Below are positions 38,801 through 53,800 of a stretch of DNA of 64,000 nucleotides, piece after piece (the stretch's first letter is position 1; each line of letters opens with the position of its first letter). A model generated the notes under the pieces. The model made no database searches. It saw nothing but the letters and a program-made list of their open reading frames with translations, and was not told where the DNA came from. The DNA is taken from the NCBI GenBank assembly GCA_026874595.1, contig CM049311.1, positions 9,833,676 to 9,897,675 on the forward strand. Direction: 5' to 3'. Origin of the DNA: Sipunculus nudus. Lineage: Eukaryota; Annelida; Sipuncula; Golfingiida; Sipunculidae. Both the position numbers and the translations under genes were made by a program.

Positions 38801-41800
38801 TGATATGAATGTGTTACCCAAAGGATTGCGAAGATTTTATTTGAAATGTTTAGAGGAATGGGCTTCATATGTATCAGTTATACCCGAATCGAAAGAAGAT
38901 GTCATATATCAAAGCTTGTGGAATAATCAATATATAAAGATTAAAAACAGACCTCTATACAACAAACATTATGTAAGTAGCAAATTATATTATATAAAAG
39001 ACCTGGTAAATTATGATGGAAAGTGGAAGCCATGGGAAAAAATACGGGAGAAGAGTATATGTATGAATCACATTGATTATATGTTTTGGATGGCATTAAA
39101 ACGGGCTATTCCAAAAACTTGGAGAGACAGGTTTACAGGGTATGAACATATACATGATGAAGGAAGTGAAGTTGACAGCGTTGTAACTGTGAATGGTTTA
39201 GAGAAATTTGATACATTAAATGCTAGAGATATATATAAGACTTTGGTGAAGAAAATATGGGAAACTCCTACAGCTCAGAAAGTATGGGATAATAAAAACC
39301 AAGAAAACAGTATCGAGGTGAAATGGGAACATGTTTATAGTGGAATATATAAAAGTACCTTAGACACTCATCTTAGAGAGTTTCAATATAAAATATTAAA
39401 TAACTACATTCCTCTAAATGATCTGTTGTATAAGTGGAATTAAAAGGAAACCCCTCAATGTTCATATTGTTTTGAGCAAAGAGAAAAGATACTACATACA
39501 TTTCTTGACTGTATGGTTGCTAAGAACTTTTACCTGAAAATAACATCCTGGTTACAGAAGTATAATGTGAATTTTCCACCAATATCACCATCTTTAATTA
39601 TATATGGCATGATACCAGTTGGTGAAGATAACATGTTAATTAACCAAATTTTGCTGCTGTACAAATATGTCTTGTATAAAGAAAGAGAGGGCTATCATTC
39701 TGCTTTGTTTGCTGTATTTAAAAGTAAATTAATGGATATTGAAAATGTTGAAAGATACATAGCTAATAAAAGGGGAATTCTAAATACGCATTACAAAAAA
39801 TGGGGTGAATTGAAAAATATGAGTAAAAACTGAAAATTATATATGAGTACCGTCATAATATGTATGGTCTGATAATGAGAAACATAACTTGTATCACAAT
39901 GTATCTTGAACTTTGTATAAGTATTTGTAATTGATTGTTTGTTTGACATTAAAAAAAATATCGCCTATGATGAAATATCCAGTGAACTTTTAAGTCAAAG
40001 AAAAAATCTGAGGCGAAAAAAAAAAAAAAAAAAAAGAGTATTTGGGTTTCTGATAAAAGTAAAGTGGTCTCCAGTATTAAAACGTAACTTTACTAGAACG
40101 TCATGTCTTACGGACACTTATGATAAGGAATTATTAATGGTTTTCATAACACCTGTAATAGTCCCTTTTCAAAGAGGAAAATCGTAGACCCAGTGTACAC
40201 ATCGGTTGTATTGCCTATCTTGCTTCAAACGCATCCAAACTTGAATATTATATTTCCAGAACGTTTCATCTTTTTAACAGGGCTAATTCAAACTAAACAA
40301 AACATAATAACGACCACATTACGCATTGCAATAAAATAAAAGTCAACAGGGTACTTACGTAATATGGTTGATTTGGATTTCATCTCACTCTTCACTCCAT
40401 TAGAGACTGACAATACTTCTGCTGTGTAGGATTCTCCTGGAGTCAGGCCTGTGAATGTTTCATTGTATTGCCCTGTAGATCCTTTGATGTTTCTTTCAGA
40501 CACCTCTGTCCCAGAGCTGTTTTTCAGTCTCACAGTGTAGAAATCAACGATTCCTGCTGACGCTGCATCCCAGGTTACAGACAGGCTAGTGGTTGAAGCA
40601 GCATAAACACGAACATTTTGTGGTGGCTCTGGCTCTGTTGCAAACAAAAAAAAAGATTGCATATATGTGAAAGTCAACAGAATACTTTCGATTTCCTAGT
40701 CCAATAGACCTCGGTTATGACTTCTGATGTCCGACGGAAATTGTTATTTTATCAAATTGGGCAAAACGAGTAGTATACATTTTGCTGGTACACTTTCTGA
40801 TAATATGACTGTGTCCAAAATGAACCTATAACTAAAATATAGGGCTATTTGCTGCAGGTAATTGACATATGGGGCCGTATGCACAAAGGCCGACTAATGG
40901 TTAGTCTTACTTTAATCTGCAGACAAACTTGAAACCGTATGCTCAACTAGTGGCCCATGGATATGACGCTCAGCTGAATTCAAGGAATGTTGAACAGTGA
41001 GCAAAATGACTGCCAGAGTGCAATCAAATCATGAACTTTGTAAAGAGTCCTTAGAAATGGGTTTCAGTCCACTTTTGGACAGATGACAACTTCATTTGAA
41101 GGTCTCATAAATAAAAAATGCGTAAAAATTTGGGAAAAAAAATACAGGTAGTGCCACCAGTCTGCACGAACTGATTAAAAAACACTCCATGATCAATATT
41201 CATGCAAAGAATCACGGTGATCAATGCAGTAGTTATTCATTTAATGTAAAAATTATATATCAAGCTCAGTTTCAGCAAGAAAAAAAATTTTTCTATTGCT
41301 TGTATGAATTGTTACGCTTATGGTAAAACGTTTAACAGCTCGCATCCTCTCACAGATACATTTCATAGGTATTTTGTCCCTGGATTTGGCATGAAGAAGA
41401 TTATCTAAAATACTCGATAATAATAATAATAATAATATTACCCGTTATTCAAAATGGCAGCTATCTGGTATCATATTTGGCGTCTGAAGTTCAGCATCCA
41501 AAATAATTTAATAAGGACTATGAGTCGGTAAAATCACGGGAATATCTTATTATTGATACAATATACATAAGTTTTGGAATATTTGCCTGACAGCCATTTT
41601 GGATATAAAAGGAGTCTGAAATTTGAAGGCGCATAGACCCTCTTGGTTAATAGAATAGATTTTAATATTGTGAAAGAATATTAAATATTAGTCAGGTCTG
41701 TAATTTGATGGTTTAGAGCCCTCAAGGGCACCAATCGCCCCAATGGATTTGGAAAAAAAGATCACGCATATTCTCTTGAGATAGAAAATCACCCATTTTA

Positions 41801-50800: not shown

Positions 50801-53800
50801 TCTGGTAAAAAAGGATAATTATTGTTACAGAACGTTTCAATTTTGAAGCAGTTTCATATTATTAAACTTATCACAGCAAATTCAAATTCGGACACGCACA
50901 CATATGACCATTTACAAGTACTGGTATACTAGTGCTGTAAGGAAGCTACATACGCAGTATTGTTAAATTATATTTCATAGCACTCTTCACCCCTTCGAAG
51001 ACTGACACCACTTCGGCTTTGTAGATTTCTCCTGGGGTAAGGTTTCTAAATGTTTCATTGTATGGCCCTCTAGGTTCAGTGTTGTTTCTCATAGAAACCA
51101 CAGTCTTGGAGCTGTTTTTCAGACTTACAGTGTAGTAATCAACAGCCGTTAATGCTGCATCCCAGGTCACATTAAGGCTTGTGGTTGAATCGGCATTGAC
51201 TCTGACGTTCTCTGGAGGTTGGGGAACTGGTAGCACAAGTGTTACATTAGTTCATTATTCCCTTAATTATGCGATATGGACACTTCTTCACACATGAAGG
51301 AAACATCCTTAAGAAGGAACTAAAGGCTTCAGAATAAAAATGTTTTCATAGCATGTGACAATGTCAGTGTTTCACAGTATCATGACAATTGTTTTAGCTA
51401 TAGCCAACATGTTATGATGAACCTTTCAAGTATGGTATTATTGTTATGGATGGACTATCATGAGTCCTTTGATATTATAATTATAAATTTGTCTTTAAAG
51501 TTGATAGATGACACAAATCTTTTAAAGAGTACTTCCAACTTAACCACCTTATGCCTACGTTGTGAAACTAAATGTCAACGACTAGACCTATATAAAGCAA
51601 AAGTAAACATGTATATACCTAATACGGGGAAACTGAATCACCCTTGGGAAAAAAGGCGTTACTGAACATATCAAAAGAACAAGTCTTATCACAGATACCT
51701 TATGAAGTCACCTGAAACTTTTTCGAGCTTATTTATGTCATTTGTTTACGTTTTACCTGTGTATGCCGTCGTGGTCTCCAGATACGCCGTGGAAGCACCT
51801 GCAACAATAAAAAAGTATCCATATGTCTTGAAAATGCACCTCGCAAATCGCGTAGTATGAAGCACGCTATGGCCCAATTTTGCTGAGAAAATGGGAGGGG
51901 GGCTCAAAGGGTATTAACACCCCCCCCCCCGGTGAAATTACACCAGCACGAATTCTCGAATTACCCCTCATGATACCCATGGCTTTCTCTTAGAATATCA
52001 TAATTTTCTACACACTACCACCACAATATAAAATATATCAATTTCAATATACGAATTTTGAAAATATAATTTACATTATGCACAATTGAAATATTATTGG
52101 GGAAAATATTATACTATAAACTGATTTACATCCTTATCTCATTTATTACATGTATTTTGTCTCCAGTCTCTAATAAAAATGATAAAAATGAAATAACATG
52201 CCCCCCAGTCCATCTCTAAAATAAGGACCATAACAATACTAAGGTTTGACAATACTAATCCGTTTTGACATTTTGTGGTGGCTCAGGCACTGCTACAACC
52301 AATTAATTCTGATAATGGAAAGTAAGCCGAATAGAGGTATATTTTCTATACTTATCCACCAGACGTCTCCTACGGCTACTGATGCCTAGAACATACCAAA
52401 CGTATTATGCGATAAAGTGGTCAATATATTATTACATTACTAAAATTGACACGCCGATAGTATACTCGCTAGTCTAAAAGTACTAATACACTTGCGTAAA
52501 CAGTCGGCTCTACTGGTGTCATACAAACGTGTTATTTTTTTTTACCTGTGTACACCGTTGTGGTCTCCGGATACGCCGTGGAAGGACCTGTAACAATATA
52601 AAGAGTTAATAATAATGATAAAATTCTATATTTATATAGCGTCAATTCTCTGATGGTCGGACTCACAGCGCAATTCACACACACACACCAACATACAATT
52701 TCATGGAAATCTATACCCTGTGCCTGACCCAAGAAAAAAAATGATGCATATTAATTACTAAAAGCTTGCCGAAAGAGATACGTTTTTAAATTAGTTTTAA
52801 ATGATACAAGAGTTAGAGATTTTTTAAGTGTAATGGGAAGTGAATTCCAAACATTTGGGCTATGAAACGGAAGGAACGTTCACCCACTTTCATATTTCAC
52901 TTTGGTACTTAAAGAAGATTTCCGCCAGCCAAGCGCAGCCTACGCAAAGGCCGATAGATTATTATTTTTCCAGGCAAATATGATGGAAGTGAGTCATCAA
53001 AATGGCGGTAAACAAAAACAGCAATTTTGTATCGTATGCGGTACTTGATGGGAAGCAAATGGAGCTGTTTGAGCAGCGGCGTGACGTGGTCGGTCTTATG
53101 CTTCTTAAGAATGAGACGCGCAGCAGTCATCTGTAATCATCTGTATCCAGATGGCTTGGCAATGCAACTCTGATGTATCGCGTAGTATGATGCACGCTGT
53201 GGGTTGTTTTTGCTAAATAAATGTGGGGGGACAATCCAAAGGCCTACAATCAATCCCCCCTGTCTCCCGGTAATAAAGACACCAGTTCGAATTCTCGAAT
53301 CCCTCGACCACCCCTCCCCCCCCCCCCCCCCCCCACCGCCCCCCAAGAAACCCAGGGCAAACTCTTTCTATCAGAATATCACAACTTTCTACACTTCACC
53401 ACATATTGTGAAATATATTAATTTCAATATACAAGTTTTTAAAATATAAGAATTACATAATGCACGATTGAAATATGTATCTTGTCCCAAGCCTCGAAAT
53501 AAAAATGATAAAAATGAAATAACATGTCTCCCAGTCCATCTCTTAATCATAACTGAGATTTGACAATACTAAGCTGATTTTTTTTTAAACGGTATGACCG
53601 GCATCACATCATACTTTCAAACATTTTATCGAAATACAAATGAAATAAAAATATAAATATTTAGGATTTTTCAGAACCCTGAGAAAGTAAAGCCTAAAGA
53701 CAATCCTATGATTGTTATACATAAACAACAAATAACTATGAAATAACAAACGAAAAATTACATATGTGAGTGCAAATATATCCTTAATAAAGAAAGATAA

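Follow-up and report, generated by a model that had tools for sequence, protein, structure and literature searches.

Probable turnover of tandem FN3 exons in a predicted R3-type receptor tyrosine phosphatase gene of Sipunculus nudus

RESULTS

Six in-frame FN3 exons in a predicted receptor phosphatase gene

The stretch of DNA analyzed here, referred to as the window, comprises 64,000 nucleotides of contig CM049311.1 (C6) of Sipunculus nudus (C6:9833676-9897675) and belongs to an assembly of 1.43 Gb in 153 contigs; this one assembly furnished the whole comparison material. Bare coordinates are window positions, and coordinates preceded by C6 are contig positions. The minus strand of the window carries a predicted gene, consistent with an R3-type receptor tyrosine phosphatase, that contains an array of six fibronectin type III (FN3) exons, E1 to E6, whose origin and turnover are the subject of this report (Table 1).

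All six exons of 273 to 276 nt proposed by the initial annotation were borne out, in that each has an open frame, phase 1-1 boundaries, and, judged from the sequence, a CAG acceptor and a GT donor. Their profile matches (E values of 8e-34 to 2e-38) lie far above chance; the profile search was run on minus-strand frames, and three of the six exons were themselves in the profile. Exon E5 was recognized as an FN3 domain both by Pfam (fn3, 53.1 bits) and by an AlphaFold2 model that adopts the FN3 sandwich (pLDDT of 94.5), the Foldseek matches of which in the PDB were FN3 domains in general and nothing narrower. The splice sites said to be common to the third through sixth copies proved to be so, as the donors of E3 to E6 are all GTAAGT or GTAAGC; E2 has GTCAGT and E1 has GTATGT. 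The description of the copies as near-identical in protein, however, fits only three of them, because 90% identity is reached only among E3, E5, and E6 (90-96%, 3 of 15 pairs, with the maximum of 96% for E3/E5). Exon E4 shares 82-86% with these three, E2 shares 78-85% with E3 to E6, and E1 shares 66-70% with the other five (minimum of 66% for E1/E6). Likewise, the introns, described as homologous, are so over long distances for E3 to E6, whereas for E1 and E2 the homology extends no farther than about 100 nt from the exon.

Downstream of the array, the FN3 exons are divergent as claimed (E5 shares 31% identity with the domain at 29225-29491), but the count of ten was not recovered: among 12 downstream open reading frames (ORFs) scanned with Pfam, six scored above the fn3 cutoff, three had fn3 matches below it, two of which appear to be the two halves of a single module, and three had no fn3 match. 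Five further exons make up one phosphatase domain, with a WPD motif and a 10-residue signature that spans a splice junction. Scored against single-domain PDB chains, the domain, its exons joined in predicted order, was closest to PTPRB (252.7 bits), PTP10D (237), PTPRO (235.7), PTPRJ (229.9), and PTPRQ (214.8), followed by PTPRT (212.9), zeta (207.5), and PTPRH (202.1), which is also of the R3 type; this ranking is by bit score rather than by a tree and covers the best 60 of 242 matches. Two-domain chains reached the highest whole-chain score (PTPRS, 364.7 bits), with domain 1 of PTPRS alone scoring 200.9 bits. When 94 kb (the window plus 10 kb on the 3' side and 20 kb on the 5' side) was searched by tblastn, the five exons of one domain and a chance-level match (E value of 0.59) were found, and an R2-type reading was rejected, as no second phosphatase domain turned up in these 94 kb. 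A single phosphatase domain whose sequence is closest to R3 members, multiple extracellular FN3 domains (E5 and 6 of the 12 ORFs, a count that covers the scanned ORFs and not a claim that the ectodomain is solely FN3), and FN3 exons between phase 1 introns in 6/6 array exons are thus found together in the predicted gene. NCBIfam gave no match for three proteins, as expected of a prokaryote library.

Table 1. Features of the window and related FN3 arrays on the same contig
Feature	Coordinates	Strand	Evidence
E1, first FN3 exon of array, most divergent copy, 273 nt, phase 1-1	50954..51226	-	splice sites, alignment
E2, FN3 exon, 276 nt	50279..50554	-	splice sites, alignment
E3, FN3 exon, 276 nt	48955..49230	-	splice sites, alignment
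E4, FN3 exon, 276 nt	48246..48521	-	splice sites, alignment
E5, FN3 exon, 276 nt	44724..44999	-	splice sites, Pfam fn3, AlphaFold2 model
E6, FN3 exon, 276 nt, mosaic against E5	40359..40634	-	splice sites, alignment
Youngest repeat unit, E6 and intron 5' of E6	40331..44699	-	self-comparison
Sister repeat unit, E5 and intron 5' of E5	44700..48217	-	self-comparison
Tandem duplication of 228 bp, E2-E3 intron	49301..49756	-	repeat search, self-comparison
Exon relic, acceptor plus initial ~46 nt of FN3 exon, remainder gone	44190..44235	-	self-comparison, splice check
Exon relic, duplicate of 44190..44235	47711..47756	-	self-comparison, splice check
Older exon relic 5' of E1 (13 residues)	52268..52302	-	translated comparison, splice check
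Possible 42-nt mini-exon region (14 residues), one of pair	51751..51813	-	repeat search; exon reading by eye
Possible mini-exon region, second copy	52540..52602	-	repeat search; by eye
ORF with FN3-7	31455..31796	-	Pfam fn3, 27.5 bits
ORF with FN3-8, also matching Fn3_Dep-1_3rd (third FN3 domain of DEP-1)	29222..29518	-	Pfam
ORF with FN3 domain	28079..28504	-	Pfam
ORF with FN3 domain	26111..26455	-	Pfam
ORF with FN3 domain	25384..25695	-	Pfam
ORF with FN3 domain	22370..22750	-	Pfam
Transmembrane-like stretch (27 residues), then KRR	13566..13646	-	translation, read by eye
Phosphatase domain exon (DYINANY)	9060..9137	-	translation, tblastn
Phosphatase domain exon (EFIAAQGP...DFW)	8550..8687	-	translation, tblastn
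Phosphatase domain exon (KCEQYWP), ends by eye	8007..8129	-	Pfam PF00102, 24.5 bits on ORF 7881-8135
Phosphatase domain exon (WPD loop to VHC)	6098..6247	-	Pfam PF00102, 45.3 bits on ORF 6086-6301
Phosphatase domain exon (SAGVGRTGT to VQTE)	5276..5413	-	Pfam PF00102, 49.2 bits on 5195-5416
Array a (a1-a7), seven FN3 exons of the related type, spaced at about 1.06 kb, last at 0.9 kb	C6:9973411-9979909	+	profile search
Array b, 21 FN3 exons about 610 bp apart, four-exon higher-order repeat	C6:12626772-12639252	-	profile search
About 25 FN3 exons, including a set of five types found three times at a spacing of about 3.8-4.4 kb	C6:12576570-12600170	-	profile search

Stepwise growth and loss of exon units

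Self-comparison of the window matched 40335-43008 to 44700-47355 (95.8% over 2,687 columns) and 43848-45044 to 47369-48566 (93.8%), which indicates that the last two units stem from a single tandem duplication, roughly 3.5-4.4 kb in size. The intron parts of these youngest units are 97.8% identical over 2,343 aligned positions and 95.8% identical over 875, that is, they differ by 2.2% and 4.2%, and their exons E5 and E6 are 94.9% identical; an 839-bp block is present in only one of the two. Synonymous divergence (dS) is 0.095-0.13 among E3, E5, and E6 (lowest for E5/E6, 0.095), 0.17-0.23 between E4 and these three, 0.41-0.54 between E2 and E3 to E6, and 0.60-0.80 between E1 and the rest (highest for E1/E6, 0.80). 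This gradation from 0.095 to 0.80 suggests that the array was built up in steps. The recent tandem expansion proposed initially was therefore upheld, both by the low dS of E3, E5, and E6 and the small differences between the youngest units and by other arrays of the contig that repeat at 97.8-99.2%, and unequal exchange is the natural mechanism to infer for it.

The array has also lost exons. Three relics, absent from the initial annotation, were found, in each of which an acceptor is followed by only the initial 35-46 nt of an FN3 exon before the match breaks off. Two of them, at 44190-44235 and 47711-47756, represent a single event that was copied along with the unit. The array both gains and loses exons.

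The two youngest units share an extra intron block (about 40877-44020 and 45237-47550) that is not in the other units, and its ends resemble, by eye, the inverted repeats of a DNA transposon-like element.

Possible gene conversion and tests of selection on E1 to E6

Exons E5 and E6 differ at 14 of 276 nt. At seven of these sites, all in nt 159-231, both bases are found in other copies, with E6 mostly matching E3/E4 and E5 mostly matching E1/E2; at the remaining seven, the base is unique to E6. This mosaic looks like the trace of a gene conversion, which may have run in either direction.

The ratio of nonsynonymous to synonymous divergence (dN/dS), calculated pairwise by the Nei-Gojobori method for the 15 pairs among E1 to E6, ranges from 0.15 to 0.55 and is 0.25-0.28 in the five pairs that contain E1. 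The initial annotation had likened the array to a fast-evolving recognition receptor and named dN/dS between the six copies as a check; with a ratio below 1 in 15/15 pairs, no excess of amino acid change emerged, and the likeness was not supported. Nor are variable residues enriched in the BC, DE, and FG loops, either for E2 to E6 (4/19 versus 22/72; P = 0.57) or with E1 added (9/19 versus 28/72; P = 0.60), and the same loops lack enrichment in the related arrays a and b described below. Positive selection on the array and ligand-loop diversification were rejected on these grounds. A hypervariable binding face is thus not supported by either the dN/dS values or the loops, and ligand binding by the N-terminal end is an assumption.

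Related arrays elsewhere on the contig

The frames of array a are open in all seven exons, without stops, and neighboring units are up to 98.0% identical (a2/a3, 97.8%; a3/a4, 98.0%). After the array comes a module that corresponds to FN3-8 (61-63% in the best frames of a tblastx comparison), and two phosphatase exons lie at C6:10157931 and 10170586. Because these share the plus strand of array a, the locus is probably, as far as its sequence tells, a head-to-head paralogue facing the window gene. In array b, b8-b11 differ from b12-b15 at 19 of 2,441 positions (99.22% identity); in-register unit comparisons gave 99.1-99.2%, as opposed to only 86.0% out of register (12635586-12638028 versus 12633144-12635585). 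Four of its 21 exons contain an in-frame stop, and one broken exon (12586257-12586491) was found among those at C6:12576570-12600170.

A tree of 70 rows recovered array b as one clade (100/99) and a1-a6 as another (100/98), and the locus labels required 7 changes on it, compared with a mean of 38.2 after shuffling (0 of 200 shuffles were as low). Mean dS within arrays (0.048 for a1-a6 and 0.086 for b1-b20) is far below dS between them (E5/a5, 0.54; E5/b11, 0.82), which suggests that the young copies arose, or were homogenized, at their own locus. Since young copies cluster by locus, amplification appears to recur.

Further FN3 exons were noted on the contig. Five more divergent exons of the E type lie at C6:12521167-12527053 (plus strand), an exon at C6:9726341-9726658 (minus strand) is close by eye to window positions 22417-22689, suggesting another paralogue, and more distant FN3 arrays occur at C6:18.22-18.24 Mb and 27.24-27.25 Mb, with phosphatase exons nearby (C6:18.207-18.210 and 27.291-27.294 Mb). 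A search of the assembly for the phosphatase family, in which 150 of 496 candidates were scored, found many phosphatase exons on contigs C2, C13, and C15, with others clustered at C6:22.5-23.2 Mb, a hint of a large receptor phosphatase repertoire.

DISCUSSION

The explanation that we favor, and that we hold to be fairly probable on the evidence of the sequence, is that unequal exchange, gene conversion, and deletion together turn over the number of FN3 modules, with selection seeing mainly the length of the ectodomain, perhaps its valency, rather than a hypervariable surface. A symmetric phase 1-1 FN3 exon with its own splice sites is present six times in frame near the 5' end of the predicted gene. 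Unequal exchange between the homologous introns would add or remove exon units, gene conversion would mix them, and deletions would kill some, such that the module count would turn over while each module would remain a sound FN3 domain. With less certainty, selection might then act mainly on this count, that is, on the length, perhaps the valency, of a sequon-rich ectodomain; we favor length or valency as the selected trait because the modules are constrained, their loops are not diversified, and their number turns over. As a changed module number changes the ectodomain length, the ectodomain would either admit the phosphatase to cell-cell contacts or keep it out of them, as for CD148/PTPRJ and CD45, whose size exclusion from close contacts has been described (PMC10815196). 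Ectodomain size is believed to govern how R3 phosphatases, CD148 among them, are sorted at cell contacts (PMC10815196). We infer the steps from array to length and from length to signaling.

Several observations weigh against this explanation. In the tree, E3 to E6 were grouped (99/94), but the group also took in a row from 12.64 Mb, and E1, E2, and a7 did not join their own arrays; the tree as a whole rests on few alignment columns. No phosphatase exon was found at C6:12.55-12.65 Mb, so that a phosphatase gene for the 12.6-Mb arrays was rejected within this interval; these arrays may represent pseudogenes or decoys or belong to genes of some other kind. Within the youngest pair, divergence in the exon exceeds that in the 2.3-kb part of the intron (14/276 versus 51/2343; Fisher P = 0.007), a result tempered by the 875-position intron part, against which there is no excess (14/276 versus 37/875; P = 0.61). 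The changes found only in E6 are mostly amino acid changes, two of which remove sequons (E6 has two of the four present in E2 to E5), and they fit relaxed or diversifying selection on this exon. Finally, variable residues of E2 to E6 cluster at positions 43-54 (9/12 versus 17/79; P = 0.0005), also with E1 added (10/12 versus 27/79; P = 0.003), in a region picked post hoc; the cluster was not repeated in array a or b.

Alternatively, the array might be nearly neutral, a symmetric exon in repeated introns that duplicates and decays by mutation alone in a phosphatase that tolerates any number of modules. This would agree with the older pairs, in which dS about equals the nearby intron difference (E3/E5, 0.129 versus 13%; E3/E4, 0.211 versus 21%), with the relic exons, and with the stops of array b. 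However, the open frames of the window and array a and the dN/dS of the E1 pairs indicate that the modules have been under constraint, which makes a nearly neutral array unlikely.

It could also be argued that the array is kept for variety in ligand binding between individuals, in copy number as well as in sequence, as in immune or self recognition. Related arrays at several sites of one contig, the recent repeats, the cluster at residues 43-54, and the exon excess of the youngest pair might all be read in this way, yet we judge it distinctly unlikely: in addition to the low ratios in the window, the unenriched loops, and the restriction of the cluster to E1 to E6, mean dN divided by mean dS is 0.43 for a1-a6, 0.65 for a1-a7, and 0.42 for b1-b20, with 1.33 for one subset of three b exons.

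That the copies are alternative cassettes, skipped or used in turn in the manner of Dscam, seems quite improbable. Any subset of the phase 1-1 exons would keep the frame, and the stop-carrying exons of array b would be harmless if skipped, but the proteins encoded by E3, E5, and E6 are almost alike, and choosing among these exons would change little; an arthropod Dscam-like reading was rejected, with exon phase as its only support. An assembly artefact, in which haplotype duplication or read collapse set the number of units, is highly improbable, since the window units, although units are 95-99% identical in places, are told apart by the 839-bp block in one, the 228-bp duplication in another, and an exon divergence of 4-27%.

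Turnover of module number, as favored here, has parallels in known systems. In its many FN3 modules, single WPD phosphatase domain, and 10-residue signature, and perhaps in the transmembrane-like stretch read by eye, the window gene is like the R3 phosphatases (PTPRB, PTPRJ/CD148, PTPRO, PTPRH, and PTPRQ; fly PTP10D, PTP4E, and PTP52F; worm DEP-1), the FN3 domains of which mostly occupy one exon each, flanked by phase 1 introns (PMC5336234), but it differs from them by its young tandem copies of one FN3 exon and its exon relics. The FN3 repeats of R3 phosphatases are termed highly variable in that source, whose main text contains no words beginning with "tandem" or "mollus" (PMC5336234). A literature search, with subscription papers mostly outside its reach, found no title on FN3 exon arrays in invertebrate R3 phosphatases, and PTPRK is named among gene families of a snail in a figure legend (PMC7895826). 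With the multi-exon variable-number tandem repeats of LPA kringle IV-2 and DMBT1, the common feature is in-frame units of a few kilobases (PMC11201333), and tandem in-frame exon units of high identity are indeed found in the window and the arrays. The differences between units (2.0-2.2% in array a, 0.8% in array b, and 2.2% in the 2.3-kb intron part of the window) are near those of LPA and DMBT1, given as 2.15% and 0.02% of positions, respectively (PMC11201333). In contrast, the copy number of the LPA repeat is established as variable, with up to 40 per allele (PMC11201333), whereas the window array is known from one assembly, and the protein modules differ. Tenascins, like the window gene, have duplicated an FN3 module repeatedly within one gene, as in the third FN3 domain of tenascin-W and in lamprey TN50, with 131 FN3 domains, many of them identical (PMC1578592, PMC11401434); they are extracellular matrix proteins, in contrast to the predicted phosphatase of the window.

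What is new is an in-frame FN3 exon repeat in a predicted receptor phosphatase; that such repeats recur at several sites of the same contig is the unusual part. Receptor length at such arrays is a good candidate for a trait that differs from one individual to the next, and the window gene, together with the loci of 7 and 21 copies, supplies a naturally graded set of ectodomain lengths. Should copy number prove variable among individuals, size exclusion could be tested by natural variation outside vertebrates; should it be fixed, the array would still show clearly how protein-domain exons are born and die. It is tempting to speculate, although we consider it improbable, that a family of R3-like loci on one contig amplifies the same kind of FN3 exon time and again, each locus separately, up to higher-order repeats of four or five exons, and that the resulting individual-specific ectodomain lengths might serve as a copy-number-coded ruler or identity tag at cell contacts.

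Other features of the window

The duplicated 63-bp stretch at 51751-51813 and 52540-52602 may hold a threonine-rich mini-exon of 42 nt. The intron between E6 and FN3-7 contains a LINE-like element (34911-39830, plus strand) with an endonuclease ORF (38.9 bits) and a reverse transcriptase ORF (100.9 bits).

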